A DNA stretch of 64,000 nt. Origin: Acidomonas methanolica (lineage in GTDB: Bacteria; Pseudomonadota; Alphaproteobacteria; Acetobacterales; Acetobacteraceae). The stretch is from assembly GCF_004346035.1 (NCBI RefSeq), contig NZ_SLZN01000008.1:1-64000 (forward strand), given 5' to 3'. Below are positions 1-14,519 of this stretch, in pieces. Position 1 is the stretch's first letter, and each line of letters begins with the position of its first letter. The notes under the pieces were generated by a model that was not told the DNA's origin, did no database searches, and saw nothing but the letters and a program-made list of their open reading frames with translations. Position numbers and translations under genes: made by a program.

Positions 1-771
1 CGGGCGGAAGGCCATGTGGTGAACCGCAAGCGCGTCCGTCGGCTGATGCGGGCGATGGGCATCGCAGCCCTGGGGCCGAAGCCCCGGACGACGATTCCGG
101 CGCCCGGACACAAGATCTATCCCTATCTGCTGCGAGATCTGGTGATTGATCGCGCGAACCAGGTGTGGGGCCCGAAGGAGCCTTTGCCTCTTCTGATCGA
201 CAGCACGGAGATCAAGGTCGAGGGAGACGGCGAGTGGCACACACGCAAACATGGCGGCTCGAAACGCAGGATCTGGCGCAAGCTTCATATCGGCATCGAC
301 GAGCGAACATTGGAAATCCGGGCTGCCGAAATCACCGGTAACGACGTTGGTGACGCACCGGTTCTGCCGATGTTGCTGGCGCAGATCCCCCAGGATGAAG
401 AGATTGGCAGCGTGACGGCTGACGGCGCCTATGACACCCGAAGCTGCCACGACATCATCGCAAAACGAGGCGCCGATGCAATCATTCCACCCCGACGGAA
501 TGCAAAACCGTGGCGCCCGACAACGCCTGGCGCCCGGGCCAGAAATGAGGCCATACGGGCTTCAGAACGCTTCGGGCGGGCGATCTGGCGACGCTGGAGC
601 GGGTATCACCGCCGAAGCCGCGTCGAGACAAAAATGCACTGCATCAAACTGCTCGGCCAGCGCCTCACCGCGAGAGACTTTGACCGTCAGGTCTCGGAGT
701 TCTACCTGCGTATCGCCATACTCAATCGCTTCACCGCGCTCGGAACCCCACTCACCGAGGCTATTCAGTAA
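1..771 (+). pseudogene. Chimeric transposase: IS3 OrfB fragment fused in frame to IS5-type C-terminal half
   Basis: The reading frame is open from the window edge, so the 5' part is cut off. Residues up to about nucleotide 168 read like the helix-turn-helix part of an IS3-family OrfB ([15 protein letters not shown], then YPYLLRDL and ANQVW, where the integrase core normally begins). From about nucleotide 169 the protein abruptly becomes the C-terminal half of an IS5-family DDE transposase (LLIDSTEIKVEGDGEWHTRKHGG, with the catalytic Asp in LIDS; later TADGAYDT and RSRVETKMHCIKLLGQRL). The IS5 N-terminal third and the IS3 catalytic core are both missing, so neither activity is expected. Read as a deletion or recombination joint between two elements. 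The right IS end follows at 808-828. Confidence 0.85.
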
Positions 772-3180: not shown

Positions 3181-4275
3181 ATGTCGAACTCGCGTCTCTC
3201 CATGCCGTCTTCCGGTCCGGCCTCGGGCGGATTCGACGAGGACGGGCGTCCGGGAGACAGCCGGGCCGGGCTGAAGAACGGCCTCGTCTGGGCCGTGCGG
3301 GTGCGTCCCGGCGAGGAGCCGGTGCAACTCGCGCCCGCTGAAATCGACGCGATTCTCGATGACGTCACGCCGCCGAGCAACTGGCCGCGTCTGGCGGAGA
3401 GCTGGGTCTGGCTGCATTTCGACACGGTCCATTCCTCCGCGCGGGCCCATGTGGCGGAGCTTCCCTGCCTGCCGGAAGACGTGCGGGCCATGCTGGCGGA
3501 AACGGAATACGGCATCATGCTGGATGCGATGCCGGGGCTGGTCTGGGGCGCGATGCCCGCCTTCGACGCGCCCGGAGCGGAGGAGGATCGCGAGATCGCG
3601 GCCTGGCGCTTCGCCATGCGCCCGGACCTGCTCATCACGACGCGGCGCAATCCGATCCCGGTTCTGGGCGCGGCCTATCGCGCCCTGCGCGGCGAGGCGG
3701 TGCCGAGGAGCCCGGCAGGCGTGATCGACCGCGCCATGCGGGATTTCGCGACGTCGGTGCGGCGGCAGATCGGGCAGCTCGATGACGAGCTGGATCGCGC
3801 CGAGGACGCGCTGCTGATCGTCGAGCACCGGACGGATCTCGGTCATCTCGGCGGCATCGTCGGCAAGGTGCGGCGTCGGGCGACGGAACTGCGGCGCGTG
3901 GTGGTGCCCGTCGATCATGCCTTGCGGGACGGCGAACTCGACCTGCCGCCCTGGGCGGAGGACGAGCTGCGCGACCGCACGGAGCGGCAGGTTCACGCCG
4001 CGCTGGACGATCTTCTGGCGCTCCAGGATCGCGGGCGGTCGCTTCAGGACGAACTCGCGGCTTCGCAGGCGGAAGAAACCAACCGGCGGCTGTATATCGT
4101 CTCGGTGGCCACGACCATGATGCTGCCCGCGACCTTCGTGACCGGGTTTTTCGGCATGAACACGGGCGGGATGTTCCTCGCCCAGGGCGCGTGGGGAACG
4201 GTCTTCGCGGGTGTGATCTGCGCGATGGCCATGGCCGTGACGTGGGTGTTTCTCAAGGTGGCGCGGTTACTTTAA
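3181..4275 (+). CDS. zntB: CorA-family divalent cation transporter, ZntB-like
   Basis: About 364 residues. The inner-membrane pentameric channel of the CorA/ZntB family moves Zn2+ or another divalent cation. There is a long cytosolic N-terminal domain (WLHFDTVHSSARAHV, ITTRRNPIPVL), a coiled helical stretch (about 180-300), then two C-terminal transmembrane helices. The family signature follows the first helix as FGMNTGG, the ZntB-type variant of the GMN motif. ATG 3181 was chosen because GGAGG lies six bases ahead; an in-frame ATG at 3169 has no comparable site. The gene is divergent from ahcY, and its 3' end overlaps that of nagA by 23 bases on the opposite strand. Confidence 0.9.
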   Translation: MSNSRLSMPSSGPASGGFDEDGRPGDSRAGLKNGLVWAVRVRPGEEPVQLAPAEIDAILDDVTPPSNWPRLAESWVWLHFDTVHSSARAHVAELPCLPEDVRAMLAETEYGIMLDAMPGLVWGAMPAFDAPGAEEDREIAAWRFAMRPDLLITTRRNPIPVLGAAYRALRGEAVPRSPAGVIDRAMRDFATSVRRQIGQLDDELDRAEDALLIVEHRTDLGHLGGIVGKVRRRATELRRVVVPVDHALRDGELDLPPWAEDELRDRTERQVHAALDDLLALQDRGRSLQDELAASQAEETNRRLYIVSVATTMMLPATFVTGFFGMNTGGMFLAQGAWGTVFAGVICAMAMAVTWVFLKVARLL

Positions 4276-5377
4276 TGCCCCCCACATAGACCTCCTCGAT
4301 CTCCAGCGCCGCGTTCATCACCACCAGATCCGCCAGCAGGCCAGGGGCGATCCGCCCGCGATCCTCAAGCCCGAGATAGGCGGCGGCGTTGGTGCTGACG
4401 AGGCGCGCGGCTTCCGGCAGGGACGCGCCATGGGCGACGGCGTTGCGCAGGGCCTGATCGAGCGTCAGCACGCTGCCCGCCAGCGACCCGTTCGGCAGGC
4501 GCACGGCGCCGTCGGCGATCAGCACGTCCTGGCCGCCGAGTTGGCTCGGCCCTTCCGGCTGGCCCGTGCCCCGCATCGCGTCGGTGACGAAGAGCAGGCG
4601 CTCTCCCATGACCCGGGCGGCGAGGCGGAAGCTGGCCGGATGGACATGGTGCGTGTCGAAGATCATCTCGCCATAGGCCGCGTCATGGCACATCAGCGCG
4701 GTGACAGGGCCGGGCCGGCGGCCTTCGATGGGCGCCATGGCGTTGAAGAGATGCGTGCCGCCGGGGACGCCGCCCGCCGCGCAGACGGCGCAGATGGCGC
4801 GATGCGCGCCCTCGTAATCCGTGACCGTATGGCCCAGACTCACGCGCACCCCCGCACCGGCGAAGGCCTGGATGGCCGTCGCGGCATGGTCCAGCTCGGG
4901 GGCGAGGGTGACGACGCGCAGACATCCCGTCGCCAGCGCCTCGGCCACGCGCTCGGGCGAAGGCGGAATGGTGAAGGGCGGCTGCGCGCCGAGCTTGTGA
5001 GGGCTGATGAACGGGCCTTCGAGATGCGCGCCGTGGATGCGCGGGCCGCCCGCCACGCCGCGTTCCATGACCGCGGCGACGGCCTTCAGCGCGGCCATGA
5101 CGTCCGGCCAGGGCCGGGTGATGGTCGTGGGCAGGAGGGTCGTCGTGCCATGGCCGAGATGGAAGCGCGCCATCCGCTCGATGGCCGCCGCGCCCTCTTC
5201 GGCCGCGTCCATCGTGTCCGCGCCGTCGCCGCCATGGACATGCGTGTCGACGAAGCCGGGCAGGATGTAGCGGCGCGGCGCCTCGGCCAGTTCGGTCACG
5301 CTCTCGATGCGTGTCCCGAAACGCAGGCGGCCCGGAAGCAGGCGATTCTGAAGAACGAGTTGGCCGTCGATGTCCAT
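4253..5377 (-). CDS. nagA: N-acetylglucosamine-6-phosphate deacetylase
   Basis: 374 residues, full length. The amidohydrolase removes acetate from GlcNAc-6-P, giving glucosamine-6-P in amino-sugar and cell-wall recycling. Motifs seen: the metal-binding PGFVDTHVHGG near residue 40, HLEGPFISPHKLGA near 118, SLGHT near 185, GGTHLFNAM near 208, and the catalytic Asp in FVTDAM near 268. The NagA family reads the same order. It stands alone without nagB or a transporter. It is divergent from ackA across 113 bases that contain an FNR/FixK-type palindrome, so both might share control (inference). Its end overlaps zntB's end in convergent orientation. Confidence 0.93.
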   Translation of the reverse strand: MDIDGQLVLQNRLLPGRLRFGTRIESVTELAEAPRRYILPGFVDTHVHGGDGADTMDAAEEGAAAIERMARFHLGHGTTTLLPTTITRPWPDVMAALKAVAAVMERGVAGGPRIHGAHLEGPFISPHKLGAQPPFTIPPSPERVAEALATGCLRVVTLAPELDHAATAIQAFAGAGVRVSLGHTVTDYEGAHRAICAVCAAGGVPGGTHLFNAMAPIEGRRPGPVTALMCHDAAYGEMIFDTHHVHPASFRLAARVMGERLLFVTDAMRGTGQPEGPSQLGGQDVLIADGAVRLPNGSLAGSVLTLDQALRNAVAHGASLPEAARLVSTNAAAYLGLEDRGRIAPGLLADLVVMNAALEIEEVYVGGIKVTAPP

Positions 5378-5420
5378 GCTGCTCCAGATGTCGGAAATGT
5401 AAAACTTCTTTTGAAGCGCA

Positions 5421-5436
5421 ATTGACGTGTGTCAAT
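5421..5436. promoter_or_regulatory. FNR/FixK-type operator ahead of ackA-xfp
   Basis: A perfect 16-base palindrome, ATTGACGTGTGTCAAT, contains TTGAC-N4-GTCAA, matching the FixK/FNR box form TTGA(C/T)-N4-(G/A)TCAA. It is centred at 5428.5, about 40 bases before a TATGTT -10-like hexamer (5453-5458) and its likely start site. That is the usual position for class II activation of the rightward ackA-xfp operon. It could also affect nagA on the other side. Confidence 0.6.
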
Positions 5437-5490
5437 GCCTTTCCCTTCGTTGATATGTTCGACTTCCTTTCCTCCAGGCAAGCAGGGAGT

Positions 5491-6714
5491 ATGGGCGTGA
5501 CCGATACCGGCCGAACCATGGTGCTGACCCTCAACGCCGGGTCATCCAGCGTGAAATTCGCCGTGTACGGCGGCGGAGAGGGGCAGGCGCGGCTCGTCTC
5601 CGGCATGCTGGAAGGCGTCGAAACGTCGCCCCGTCTTTCGGCGCAGGATGCCGACGGCAAGGTGCTGGTCGATCGGCAATGCAGCCTGACGGGCGATTCG
5701 GACCCGCATCTGGCGGCGATCGACCTGCTCATGGGATGGATCGATTCCCATCTCGGCCTCGATGCGTTGGCCGGGGTGGGGCACCGCGTGGTGCATGGCG
5801 GTCCGGATTTCCACCTTCCGATTCGGGTCGACGCGCGGACGCTCGGGGAGATGGAACGCCTGATGCCGTTCGATCCTCTTCATCTGCCCGCGTGTCTTGG
5901 TCCGATTCGCGCGCTGCTGACGGCGCATCCGGACCTGCCCCAGATCGCCTGTTTCGACACGGCGTTTCACGCAGGAATGCCCGACGCGGCGCGGCGGCTG
6001 GCTCTGCCGCGCCGCTACGACGCGGCGGGCGTGCGCCGGTACGGGTTTCACGGCCTGTCCTATGAATATATCGCGGCATGGCTGTCGGCGGCGTATCCGG
6101 ATCTCGCGCGCGGGCGGGTGCTCGCGGCGCATATCGGCAACGGGGCGAGTCTCTGCGCCATGCAGGTCGGCCGGAGCGTGGCGACGACCATGGGGTTTTC
6201 TGTGCTGGACGGGCTGGTGATGGGTACCCGTCCCGGCGCGCTCGATCCCGCCGTGCTGCTTTATATGATGCGACAGGAAGGGCTCGGCGCGGACGATATC
6301 GAGAAGACGCTCTATCATGAGTCCGGCCTGCTGGGCGTTTCCGGGGTGAGCAGCGACATGCGGACGCTGCGCCAGCGGGAAAATGAACCTGACGTGCGCG
6401 AGGCGCTCGATCTCTGCATCCATCGGTTCACGGAGCAGGCCGGAGCGATGATCGCCGCCATGGGCGGAGTGGACGGCATCGTCTTCACCGGCGGCGTGGG
6501 CGAGCATGATGCCGCTTTCCGCGCCGAGGCGTGCGCGCGGCTGGCGTTTCTGGGTGTGCAACTGGCGGACGAGGCGAATCTGGCGCGCCGGGAGGTGATC
6601 TCGGCGGCGGAGAGCCGGGTGCGCGTGCTGGTCAGGGCCGCCGATGAGGAAGCAACGATTCATCGCCATGTGCGGGACTGCCTTGGCGATCATGCGAAAA
6701 GGAATGCAGGATGA
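5491..6714 (+). CDS. ackA: Acetate kinase
   Basis: About 407 residues. The cytosolic enzyme converts acetyl phosphate plus ADP to acetate plus ATP. The ASKHA fold is shown by [15 protein letters not shown] at the N-terminus, GHRVVHGG near residue 94, [11 protein letters not shown] and [13 protein letters not shown] in the middle, [11 protein letters not shown], and [13 protein letters not shown]. The start may be ATG 5491, GTG 5497 or ATG 5518; AGGGA at 5484-5488 fits the first two. The stop overlaps the xfp start (ATGA), so the two are translationally coupled. The pair forms a short acetyl-phosphate-to-ATP route from pentose or fructose phosphates. An FNR/FixK-like box lies upstream. Confidence 0.97.
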
Positions 6715-9080
6715 GTGAGACGACGAGCCCGCTGAGCGAGGGCGAACTCGCGCTGTTCGACAAATGGTGGGCGGCCGCGAACTATCTGTCCGTCGCCCAG
6801 ATCTATCTGCTCGACAATCCGCTGCTGCGCGAGAAGCTCACGCTGGAGCACACCAAGCCGCGTCTGCTCGGTCACTGGGGCACGACGCCCGGGCTGAACT
6901 TCCTCTATCTCCACCTCAACCGCATCATCCGCCGCGACAAATCCTCGGTGCTGTTCGTCGCGGGTCCGGGTCACGGGGCGCCGGGCGTGGTGGCGAGCAC
7001 CTATCTGGAAGGCACCTATTCCGAATATTTCCCCGAGATCACGCAGGACGCCGCCGGGCTGAAGAAGCTGGTGCGGCAATTCTCCTTCCCCGGCGGCATC
7101 CCGAGCCATGCGGCGGCGACCACGCCGGGCTCCATCCATGAGGGCGGCGAACTCGGCTACTCGCTCTCCCACTCCTTCGGCGCGGCGTTCGACAATCCCG
7201 ATCTGACCATCGCCTGCGTGGTGGGCGACGGCGAGGCGGAGACCGGGCCGCTGGCCACGTCCTGGCACGGCAACAAGTTCCTCAACCCGGTGGCGGACGG
7301 CGCGGTTCTGCCGATCCTGCATCTCAACGGCTACAAGATCGCCAACCCGACGGTCCTCGCGCGGATTCCGACCGAGGAGCTGCTGGCGCTGTTCCGGGGC
7401 TACGGCTATGCGCCGATTCTGGTCGAGGGGCACGAGCCCGATCTGATGCACCAGAAGATGGCGGCGGCCATGGACACCGCCTTCGCCGCCATTGCGGCGA
7501 TCCGGAGGGCCGCGCGCGAGGAGGGGAGCACGGAGCGCCCGACCTGGCCGATGATCATCCTCCGCAGCCCCAAGGGCTGGACCGGCCCCAAGACGGTCGA
7601 CGGCCTGCGGACCGAGGGCTACTGGCGCTCGCATCAGGTTCCGTTCTCCGATCTCACGAAGCCGGGCCATCTCGCATTGCTGGAGGAATGGCTCCGCAGC
7701 TATCACCCGGAGTCGCTGTTCGACGAAAACGGCACGCTTCTGCCGGAAATCCGTGCTCTCGCGCCGGCAGGCCATTTGCGGATGAGCGATAATCCGCATG
7801 CCAATGGCGGCATTCTGCGTCGCCCCCTGCGTCTGCCCGATCTCGCGCCCCACGCCATTGCCCTTTCTGCGCCCGGCGCGGTGACCGGCGAGGCGACCCG
7901 CGTGCTGGGCGAATGGCTGCGCGACGTCATGACGGCCAATCAGGACCAGCGCAATTTCCGCGTCTGGTCGCCGGACGAGAACAATTCCAACCGCCTCAAC
8001 GCGCTGCTCGACGTCACTGATCGCCAGTGGGAGGCGGAGCGGTTCGATTATGACGATCATCTCGCGCCCGAGGGGCGGGTGATGGAGATTCTCAGCGAGC
8101 ACACCTGCCAGGGCTGGCTGGAAGGCTATCTGCTGACCGGGCGGCACGGCTTCTTCTCGTGTTACGAAGCCTTCGTCCACATCGTCGACTCGATGGTCAA
8201 CCAGCATTCCAAATGGCTCAAGGAAGCCAACGAGACGCCATGGCGGCGGTCGATCTCGTCGATGAACTATCTGCTGACCTCCCATGTCTGGCGGCAGGAC
8301 CATAACGGTTTCAGCCATCAGGACCCCGGCTTCATCGACCATGTGGTGAACAAGCGGGCCGACGTGGCGCGCGTCTATCTGCCGCCGGACGCCAACACCC
8401 TGCTCTGCGTGGCCCGTCACTGTCTGGAAAGCTGGGACCGGATCAACGTCATCGTCGCGGGCAAGCAGCCGGAATGGCAATGGCTCGACATGGACGCGGC
8501 GATCCGCCATTGCGCGCAGGGAATCGGCATCTGGGAGTGGGCGAGCAACGATCGCGACGGCGGCCCGGACGTGGTGATGGCCTGCGCGGGCGACGTGCCG
8601 ACGATGGAAACGCTGGCCGCCGTCTCGCTGCTGCGCCGGCACGTGCCGGAGCTGAAGATCCGCGTGGTCAATGTCGTGGACCTGCTGACGCTGCAAGCCA
8701 AGGAGCAGCATCCGCACGGGCTGGACGAGGCGACCTTCGAGATGATCTTCACGAAGGACCGTCCCGTCATCTTCGCCTTTCACGGCTATCCGCAGCTCAT
8801 CCACCAGCTCATCTACAGGCGGTCCAACTGCCGGAACTTCCATGTCCACGGCTTCCGGGAGGAGGGGACGACCACCACGCCCTTCGACATGACGGTCCGC
8901 AATCACCTCTCGCGCTATCATCTGGCGCTGAACGTCTTCCGTCGCGTTCCCTCGATGGCGGCGAAGGCGGCCTATGCGACGCAGGCGATTCAGGACCGTC
9001 TGGTCGAACACCGTCTGTATGTCCGTGAGCACGGGCAGGACATGCCGGAGATCCGGAACTGGAAGTGGGAGACGCCCTGA
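6711..9080 (+). CDS. xfp: Phosphoketolase (xylulose-5-P / fructose-6-P phosphoketolase)
   Basis: 789 residues, the usual family length. The thiamine-diphosphate enzyme cleaves xylulose-5-P (and often fructose-6-P) with phosphate, giving acetyl phosphate plus glyceraldehyde-3-P or erythrose-4-P. Signatures: [20 protein letters not shown] near 84-103, [29 protein letters not shown] near 124-152, the ThDP-motif region [21 protein letters not shown] near 166-186, and [10 protein letters not shown] and SHQDPGF in later domains. It starts inside the last codons of ackA, so the acetyl phosphate maker and user are made together. A hairpin at 9096-9116 follows. It bypasses lower glycolysis, fitting acetic acid bacteria with weak glycolysis. 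Confidence 0.96.
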
Positions 9081-11575: not shown

Positions 11576-11693
11576 TTATAAATAATTCTTTGGGGATTTA
11601 TTTCGTCGCTCTAGTATCCCCGACACTAGAACAGCGGCGAAACGTCAACCGGGACGCTTGCGCAAATCACGATTCAGCAAAGAGGTTTTGGAG

Positions 11694-14519
11694 ATGACGA
11701 CGATATTCTGGCAGGGCGGTGCATCCAACGACTGGTATGACCCGGCGAACTGGAGATACGGAAATCTCCCCCAAAGCGACAGCAACCAGGCCGCGAACGT
11801 CAGCGGCACCGCCGCCGATCCGGCGCTGGCGGTGCTCAACGCGCCGAGCTACAGCCAGATCGACTGCCTGACCGTCGGCGACGACGCCACGGTCAAGATC
11901 ACCGCCACGACGGCGGGCATCGGGAACGTCTTCGCCACGCGTGGCACCGAGGTCTATCCGGGCAGCAATCTGATCATCGACACGCCCGCAGCCGTCGAAC
12001 TCGGCATCGTCACCAAGGTCGACGGCACGCTGACGATCATCGGCAATGACGGCAAGGTCGTCCTCGACGGCACCCGCATCGTCGGTGGCGGGACGGTCAA
12101 CCTCGTCGATTCGACCCTCGGCAGCGCGACCTATCCCGTCAGCCTCGCCACCGCCGTCACCCTTTCGGGCAACAGCACGCTCTATGCCGGTTTCTATGGC
12201 GACGGCGCGTCCGTGACCTTCGATCCCGCGACGCAGAATACGCTCTATGTCACGGGCAACGAGAGCACCATTTCGACGCCGCTGTACGGCGTGTCGGAAA
12301 ACACGATCTTCGGCATCGAGGCCGGATCGCAGACGCCGGTCTCCGCCGCATACACCATGAATTCCGACGGCACCTACAGCCTGTCCGTCACCATGACGGA
12401 CGGCAAGGCGCTGACCTTCGACGACATCCATCTCGCCTCGGGCTTCGTCCCCGCCTCGCCGACCATCGAGCAAACGTCGAGTGGCTGGGCGATCGTCGAC
12501 ACCAATGCGAGCAGCGTGCCTCCTTCGTATGACACGTCCGATACGCACCTGTCGCTGGTGGCGACCGCCACCGCGGCGCAGCAGGTCGGCGGCGACACCT
12601 CGCAATATTCGACCACCGAATACAGCCAGCACAATGGCGATCAGACGGATGGCTGGAACGGCGGCGCGACCGGGAACTGGTCCACGGCGTCCGACTGGAG
12701 CACGGGCGCGGTCCCCGAGGAGGATCCGGCCGGCCACGCCTCGCTCGCCGGCACCGAATCGACGCCCGTGAGCGTGACCCTCGATACGCCGTATTACCAG
12801 CAGATCACCTCGCTGAGCATCGGTCCCTACGCGACCATGACGATCACGGCCACGGCGGATCGCGCCGGCTATGTCTTCGCGACACAGGGCATGCAGATCG
12901 CCCCCACCGGCGCGCTGGTGATCAACACCGCGTCGCCCGTCGAACTCGGCGGCGTCACCGAGGTGCGCGGCGGCACGGTCACGATCGAGAACAACGACGG
13001 CAAGGTTGTGCTCGATGACAACAGACTCACCGGCACCGGCACGCTCAACCTGATCAACTCGACCCTCGGCACCGTCGCCGCGCCGGTCCGGGTGGGGTCC
13101 TTCGCGGTCAATCTCACCGGCGGCAGCACGCTTTATGCCGGTTTCTACGCCAGCGGCTCCTCCGTGACCTTCGACCCCACAACGCGGAACACGCTCTATG
13201 TCACGGGTGACGAAAGCACGGTTTCCACCGCGCTTTACGACGTGTCGGCGAACACGGTCATCGGCATCGAGCCCGGCGCCTACAGCGCGCCCGATTCCGC
13301 GCAATACGTGGACAATGGCGACGGTTCCTACAGCCTCGTCGTCAGTCTGGCCGACGGCAAGACGCTGACGTTCTCGGACGTCCATTTCGCCAGCGGTTTT
13401 ACCCCGGTCACGCCGACCGTCACGGCGGTCGCTGGCGGCGGCTGGATCATCACCGACTCCAACGCGCCGTGCTATCTCGCGCAGACGCTGATCCGCACCG
13501 ATCGGGGCGATGTCGCGGTCGAAGACCTCCGGATCGGCGATCAGGTCGTCGCCTTCGACTGGGAGAACGGCCGGGACAGTCTCCGTGAGATCGTCTGGGT
13601 CGGCAAGGCCCGCACGGTGGCCCGGCCGCATCTTCCGGATGACGAGGCCGGGTATCCCGTCCGTGTTCTGAAGGACGCGATCGCCGATGGCGTGCCGTAC
13701 AAGGACATGCTGATCACGTCGGAGCACTGCCTGTTCTTCGAAGGCAAGTTCATTCCGGTCCGCATGCTCGTCAACGGTCGGTCCGTCTTCTACGACAAGA
13801 CGATCCGCTCCTATGACTACTATCACGTCGAGACCGAGCGGCATTCGGTCATCATGGCGGATGGCGTCCTGAGCGAGAGCTATCTCGATACCGGGAATCA
13901 TCGCGCTTTCCGCCGGCAGGAAGGCAACGTCATCTCCTTCCTGAATTCCCGCAACCTGACATGGGATGACGCCGCCGCGCCGCTGGGTGTCGCGCAGGAT
14001 TTCGCAGAGCCGCTTCACCAGCGGATCGCCGCCCGCGCGGAAGCGGCGGGTCTCGAGCGGCAGGAGGAAGCCCCCGAACTGACCACCGATGCGGACCTGC
14101 ATCTCATGCTCGATAACGGCGCTATCGTGAGCAAGCTGCGCGAGAATAACGGCCGCGTCATGTTCATGCTGCCGACCGGGGTGACGAGTGTTCGTCTCGT
14201 GTCCCGCGCCAGCCGCCCCGCCGACGTGATCGGTCCTTTCGTTGACGATCGCCGTTATTTCGGCGTCGCGGTCGGCGAGATCACCATGTTCGAGAGCGGC
14301 CACACCGTCGCCATCCGCTCCCATCTGACCGAAAAGGGACTGGACGGCTGGAACGACCTCCAATGGGAAGACACCCGCTGGACCAGCGGCAGCGCGCTGC
14401 TGCCCCTCGGCCAGCGCCATCCCAACAGCATCGCCCTGCTCGCCATTCAGGTCAGGGCGGCCGGCCCCTATCTGGCCGCCGGCATGATCGGGAAGACGGC
14501 TCTCGCCGCCACGGCCTGA
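11694..14519 (+). CDS. Large Hint-domain protein with duplicated N-terminal domain
   Basis: 941 residues. ATG 11694 was chosen over 11658 because AGAGG lies eight bases ahead and MTTIFWQGG is a typical opening for this group. Two homologous domains follow each other at about 5-290 and 319-590 (matching STLYAGFY, VTFDP, NTLYVTG, each opening with a WxGG...W segment), rich in G, T, S and beta-type repeats. A Hint (hedgehog/intein) domain spans about 592-735: APCYLAQTLIRT, VEDLRIGDQVVAFD, then ITSEHCLFFEGKFIPVRML. About 200 further residues (LMLDNGAIVSKLREN, VRLVSRASRPADVIGPF) resemble the C-terminal part of other such proteins. No Sec signal is visible. Probably surface-exposed or exported; function unknown. 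Followed by a strong terminator. Confidence 0.85.
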   Translation: MTTIFWQGGASNDWYDPANWRYGNLPQSDSNQAANVSGTAADPALAVLNAPSYSQIDCLTVGDDATVKITATTAGIGNVFATRGTEVYPGSNLIIDTPAAVELGIVTKVDGTLTIIGNDGKVVLDGTRIVGGGTVNLVDSTLGSATYPVSLATAVTLSGNSTLYAGFYGDGASVTFDPATQNTLYVTGNESTISTPLYGVSENTIFGIEAGSQTPVSAAYTMNSDGTYSLSVTMTDGKALTFDDIHLASGFVPASPTIEQTSSGWAIVDTNASSVPPSYDTSDTHLSLVATATAAQQVGGDTSQYSTTEYSQHNGDQTDGWNGGATGNWSTASDWSTGAVPEEDPAGHASLAGTESTPVSVTLDTPYYQQITSLSIGPYATMTITATADRAGYVFATQGMQIAPTGALVINTASPVELGGVTEVRGGTVTIENNDGKVVLDDNRLTGTGTLNLINSTLGTVAAPVRVGSFAVNLTGGSTLYAGFYASGSSVTFDPTTRNTLYVTGDESTVSTALYDVSANTVIGIEPGAYSAPDSAQYVDNGDGSYSLVVSLADGKTLTFSDVHFASGFTPVTPTVTAVAGGGWIITDSNAPCYLAQTLIRTDRGDVAVEDLRIGDQVVAFDWENGRDSLREIVWVGKARTVARPHLPDDEAGYPVRVLKDAIADGVPYKDMLITSEHCLFFEGKFIPVRMLVNGRSVFYDKTIRSYDYYHVETERHSVIMADGVLSESYLDTGNHRAFRRQEGNVISFLNSRNLTWDDAAAPLGVAQDFAEPLHQRIAARAEAAGLERQEEAPELTTDADLHLMLDNGAIVSKLRENNGRVMFMLPTGVTSVRLVSRASRPADVIGPFVDDRRYFGVAVGEITMFESGHTVAIRSHLTEKGLDGWNDLQWEDTRWTSGSALLPLGQRHPNSIALLAIQVRAAGPYLAAGMIGKTALAATA

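Follow-up and report, generated by a model that had tools for sequence, protein, structure and literature searches.

The 113-bp gap between the divergent genes nagA and ackA of Acidomonas methanolica (positions 5378-5490 of the window, i.e., of the whole 64-kb stretch of DNA analysed) contains a palindrome that probably serves the genome's single FNR-type regulator as the site for class II activation of the ackA-xfp operon when oxygen is scarce, as judged from sequence comparisons. Directly observed are the site itself, a regulator with four cysteine ligands, conservation of the site, and the predicted promoter spacing in relatives.

On the plus strand, ackA (5491..6714) encodes an acetate kinase of 407 residues (PF00871, E 8.8e-99; TIGR00016 over cut-off), its start being placed at 5491, the first ATG in frame beyond the gap, with GTG 5497 or ATG 5518 as further possible starts. 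It overlaps by 4 nt with xfp (6711..9080, plus strand), which encodes a D-xylulose 5-phosphate/D-fructose 6-phosphate phosphoketolase of 789 residues (PF09364, PF03894 and PF09363; NF003619 over cut-off). The N-acetylglucosamine-6-phosphate deacetylase gene nagA (4253..5377, minus strand; TIGR00221 over cut-off) begins with an ATG at 5377 and diverges from ackA across the gap. The family models uphold the identities that the first-pass annotation had given to all three genes. Elsewhere in the window, reading by eye from the translations assigns a transposase-like reading frame to the left edge (16-771, plus strand) and a large repeat-rich protein with a Hint-like C-terminal part to 11658-14519 (plus strand).

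The predicted FNR box, TTGACGTGTGTCAA at 5422-5435 (no strand assigned), is a strict match to TTGA(C/T)-N4-(G/A)TCAA, and its 14-nt core is framed by a flanking A and T in ATTGACGTGTGTCAAT at 5421-5436. The palindrome that had been claimed for this region is thereby present, the interval given for it is exactly the nagA/ackA gap, and the promoter region of ackA contains, as a strict match, the FNR box that belongs to a class II promoter. For the strict pattern, the 64-kb window yields a single match where 0.03 would be expected; sites with one mismatch (2 against 1.92 expected in the window) were dropped as evidence. Counting throughout the 3.68-Mb genome was likewise discarded, with 5 strict sites and 5 for a reversed-pattern control, and 16 against 18 for a loose pattern. 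Since strict sites are not enriched in this genome, support for the box comes from its place and its conservation, and not from counts.

The genome, estimated to be 100% complete, encodes one protein with both Crp-type DNA-binding and cNMP-type sensor domains, a regulator of 241 residues (L001:1024-1749; PF00027, PF13545 and PF00325 over cut-off). The regulator of FNR/FixK type that the first-pass annotation wanted looked for is accordingly there, as an FNR-type protein, and the genome yielded no other full Crp/Fnr regulator. An alignment of 30 loci of the family (its own and those of the best 29 orthologues) keeps the cysteines C16, C19, C27 and C115 in all 30, with ETVSR or ETISR as the sequence of the recognition helix throughout. 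The regulator thus has the N-terminal cysteine cluster and the fourth cysteine, placed in the sensor domain, of FNR-type proteins, and its sensor domain is joined to a Crp-type helix-turn-helix with the conserved Glu, Ser and Arg recognition residues described in the accessible part of PMC7713065. Its best NCBIfam matches are FnrL (148 bits against a cut-off of 300), FixK of Caulobacter (129 against 300) and Fnr (102 against 228), all under cut-off, and the regulator is an FNR-class protein that is not filed under the names FnrL, FixK, Fnr or CRP. A CRP/cAMP reading is ruled out by the score of 32 bits against the CRP cut-off of 266 together with the FNR cysteines, and the solved structures related to the protein include FixK2 and an FNR regulator. 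The conserved residues make it very likely that the protein senses oxygen, by means of a predicted [4Fe-4S] cluster. Two further candidates were set aside: a 163-residue protein on contig C71, which has a second Crp-type helix-turn-helix match, at cut-off, and lacks a sensor domain; and an 886-residue frame on contig C1, which has a cNMP-binding domain and lacks a Crp-type helix-turn-helix match.

To assess conservation, 200 family genomes, themselves a draw from a larger group, were searched with Xfp, and the enzyme was found in 65. The upstream stretches examined comprised 69 of the 79 match rows from other genomes and the window, giving 70 loci; ackA lies directly upstream of xfp in 29 of these, from 18 genera, and the other 41 include short contig ends. 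Of the 29 loci, 14 have a strict box no further than 100 nt from the inferred start of ackA, and they represent 8 of the 18 genera (15 loci have one within 350 nt); 1000 rounds of dinucleotide shuffling gave a mean of 0.018 loci with a box and a maximum of 1. The reversed pattern is absent within 350 nt of ackA from all 29 loci, and the 36,418 nt between the ackA and xfp starts of the same loci contain no strict box. Conservation upstream of ackA-xfp in relatives, which had been proposed as a check, is therefore found in these 14 family loci. The half-sites are kept and the four central bases vary by genus (GTGT, TTGG, GTGC, CGAC, ACGG and TCGC). Among the ten named family loci, some of which come from the same genome as other loci in the set, five have the box (Brytella, Gluconobacter thailandicus, two Gluconacetobacter and Komagataeibacter melomenusus) and five do not (Swaminathania, three Asaia and Commensalibacter); for the labelled genera g42, g60, g85 and g40, the names Gluconacetobacter, Komagataeibacter, Asaia and Commensalibacter were guessed from their similarity to named loci. 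One locus (L107, genome G022) has two strict boxes, 231 and 52 nt before ackA.

Of the 41 family loci in which no ackA was found upstream, some of them short contig ends, 4 have a strict box no more than 350 nt from xfp. These boxes, at L136, L147, L148 and L166, stand 97-261 nt before xfp and possibly represent independent wiring of phosphoketolase to FNR. In the set of 80 phosphoketolase loci that includes the ten named ones, 70 belong outside the family; in the rhizobial rows among them no strict box lies within 350 nt before xfp. One row has a strict box about 460 nt before xfp (L091), another has two further off (L060), and seven carry a looser TTGATC-type palindrome about 0.9-1 kb upstream.

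The spacing between box and promoter was evaluated with a -10 matrix of approximate weights, and the -10 elements given here denote consensus matches rather than mapped starts. Averaged over 10 non-redundant promoters that have a box, the -10 score is highest at offsets 23-24 downstream of it, which corresponds to a box centre at -41.5/-42.5; 0 of 2000 shuffles reached this peak, and the same placement is the best single one in 10 of the 15 box-bearing rows. For E. coli, -41.5 is described as the commonest single activating position, by authors who searched 41.5 ± 4 (PMC7349173, accessible part); most FNR-activated operons of Sphingopyxis granuli are centred at -40.5 to -42.5 (PMC7713065, accessible part). 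The best -10-like hexamer for ackA in the window, TATGTT at 5454..5459 on the plus strand, places the box centre at -37.5 and is a consensus match only; in the close relative G025, the class II position lacks a good -10. The earlier placement of the box about 40 bases before the transcription start agrees only in part with these results: class II spacing is seen in those 10 of 15 promoters, but the window's own best -10 gives -37.5.

The displaced -10 is one of three points in favour of a different reading, that FNR binds the box but represses ackA-xfp at low oxygen, or acts weakly there. Repression by FNR proteins is also known (PMC7713065, accessible part), and the gene for the regulator itself offers an example of the geometry: a strict box stands upstream of fnr in 25 of 30 loci, this genome included, and here it overlaps the -35 of TTGACC-N18-TATAAG with its centre at -29.5. 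Such an overlap with the -35 that belongs to a good -10 suggests that fnr is under negative autoregulation. At ackA, in contrast, the mean -10 signal of the relatives has the activating geometry, with no shuffle as good. The TTGACG of the box was also considered as an ordinary -35 of ackA and rejected; in the window, a scan of offsets 5-40 after the box gives the best -10s at 19, 16 and 33 only, none of them at the distance from the TTGAC half-site that an ordinary -35/-10 pair would have. We regard repression or weak action as unlikely.

Equally little weight is given to the alternative that the box serves nagA, or both divergent genes, with ackA-xfp as a bystander. The box is symmetric and lies 44 nt from the nagA start codon, and a -10-like hexamer on the nagA side, TACATT at 5396..5401 on the minus strand, would place its centre at -39.5 (consensus match only), so nagA may be a second target; in G025, GATACT on the nagA side, read by eye, corresponds to about -37.5. 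Against this, a divergent nagA was found in only 3 of the 29 ackA-xfp loci, whereas the box is found beside ackA in 14, and in the two other nagA loci some 120 and 170 nt separate the box from the match to nagA. The first-pass remark that nagA diverges from the same region is thus correct for the window, but nagA is not a conserved part of the arrangement, because so few loci have it. It is very improbable that the palindrome arose by chance or binds some other factor: the strict pattern is no commoner in the genome than its reversed control (5 against 5), and one of the five sites, on C35 at the end of a MarR-type gene, looks accidental, but the box occupies the same place in 8 genera, compared with the 0.018 loci expected, and no further full Crp/Fnr protein was found in the genome.

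Activation of ackA-xfp by FNR, the reading that we favour, can be set beside the other boxes of the group. Four box-bearing relatives contain 42 strict sites, compared with 9 for the reversed control. A strict box precedes an AdhP-type alcohol dehydrogenase gene in this genome and in G022 (the match is over cut-off in G022 and reaches 331 bits against a cut-off of 344 here), and the adhP of this genome has TATACC with the box centred at -41.5, the sole clear class II spacing among the other targets. Strict boxes are further found before a pntA-like transhydrogenase subunit gene in Brytella and G009 (matches below full-length cut-offs) and before an OprB porin gene in G025 and G022; other downstream genes were seen once each. 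Of the further sites inspected in five genomes, 19 of 37 lie inside a called reading frame, both adhP sites included, with a crude ORF caller. A search of the present genome (G000) with the pntA-like protein of Brytella, run without a positive control, found nothing at E 0.001, and the genome may lack this transhydrogenase. Together, alcohol dehydrogenase, transhydrogenase and phosphoketolase-acetate kinase would make up a low-oxygen redox and ATP programme.

A strict box also lies 106 nt before the gene for a 711-residue flavin/2Fe-2S oxidoreductase, within a 4-kb stretch (L253:14-4014; L235) that is 99.975% identical across genera, between contig C6 of this genome and contig C3 of Brytella. 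The 2.8-kb part with the box and the oxidoreductase gene is 93% identical to an Acetobacter aceti plasmid and 87% to a Gluconobacter oxydans plasmid, and the 4-kb stretch, box included, was probably transferred recently.

No box lies within 100 nt of ackA in 15 of the 29 loci. A search of 46 of the genomes for the regulator gave matches in 42, and 11 of the 15 genomes with box-less loci encode an FNR-like protein of at least 40% identity; in Swaminathania and three Asaia-like genomes, fnr is preceded by a strict box and ackA is not. FNR control of ackA-xfp would thus be dispensable, because box-less genomes keep FNR, some of them with the box before fnr. Three small genomes of the genus g40 gave neither a regulator match nor a box within 100 nt of ackA; in one of the three, an AT-rich region contains a strict match at -153. 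The closest relatives as judged by ackA do not agree with one another: the box is present in G025, whereas G047 shows a one-mismatch site at -165 and no strict one. Mapped onto a 26-row ackA tree, the distribution of the box takes 3 changes; the mean after shuffling is 9.0, and none of 500 shuffles came as low. One gain and two losses would fit, on a tree whose root is arbitrary and which has nine unresolved inner branches and several long ones.

The closest known system is GoxR (GOX0974), the single Crp/Fnr protein of the strictly aerobic Gluconobacter oxydans, which has an iron-sulfur cluster, is of FNR type and regulates genes of respiration and redox metabolism, according to the accessible parts of PMC9429829 and PMC7567684. 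The low-oxygen FNR idea, put forward in the first-pass annotation as notable for strict aerobes, is less surprising than it was made to appear, because a regulator of this kind had already been described in one (PMC9429829, accessible part). The present case resembles GoxR, as far as the accessible sources describe it, in a single Crp/Fnr member, a strictly aerobic acetic acid bacterium and redox genes among the targets, which here are predicted ones. The pnt operon is reportedly also a target of GoxR; here, pntA-like genes with strict boxes occur in two relatives, whereas the genome itself gave no pntA match.

Sphingopyxis granuli TFA shares with our data an identical FnrN/FixK consensus, TTGA(c/t)-N4-(g/a)TCAA, and the centring of most activated operons near -41.5; it differs in that it respires nitrate, and the targets seen in the accessible part of the report include neither phosphoketolase nor acetate kinase (PMC7713065). 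Crp/Fnr-type regulator genes are also described for acetic acid bacteria in Komagataeibacter (CRP/FNRKh and CRP/FNRKx), but these were studied for cellulose synthesis and phytohormones, in a text whose accessible part contains neither 'consensus' nor 'TTGA' (PMC4686702). In the open-access literature, of which some listings were available in part, we found no report of FNR/FixK control of phosphoketolase-acetate kinase in acetic acid bacteria, and the work found on phosphoketolase, acetic acid bacteria and oxygen limitation concerns glycerol conversion. A fructose-6-phosphate phosphoketolase was reportedly described in Acetobacter xylinum by Schramm, Klybas and Racker in 1958, a work cited in PMC12012885; this enzyme has the same activity and comes from the same bacterial family, with no connection to oxygen or FNR as far as the source was available. 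With GoxR known, and no such report found in the open-access literature, ackA-xfp appears as a predicted addition to the targets of a regulator whose type is already known.

Phosphoketolase converts xylulose-5-phosphate or fructose-6-phosphate and phosphate to acetyl-phosphate, from which acetate kinase forms acetate and ATP; this is established enzyme chemistry. When oxygen becomes limiting, the iron-sulfur cluster of FNR would stay intact and the protein would dimerise; the dimer would bind at 5422-5435 and recruit RNA polymerase to ackA-xfp, and Xfp and AckA would then yield ATP without respiration and without NAD(P)H. Of these steps we infer FNR binding, activation rather than repression, and the response to oxygen. 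The interpretation first given to this locus is, as a whole, partly supported.

Why strict aerobes keep a phosphoketolase is not obvious, and the conserved FNR box points to a possible source of ATP at low oxygen. A broader proposal, which we regard as possible rather than probable, is that strictly aerobic acetic acid bacteria have a conserved, FNR-run emergency fermentation, composed of ackA-xfp with AdhP, and in some genera also transhydrogenase, as redox outlet. This wiring would be old in the Gluconobacter/Komagataeibacter/Gluconacetobacter group, and the Asaia/Swaminathania line would have lost it. That acetic acid bacteria with a strictly aerobic life can have an FNR was known before; new is the predicted conserved ackA-xfp target. 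If correct, this would be relevant to the vinegar, cellulose and sugar-oxidation processes in which cells can be limited by oxygen transfer, and it would widen the GoxR-type regulon, known for respiration and redox genes, to substrate-level ATP synthesis.
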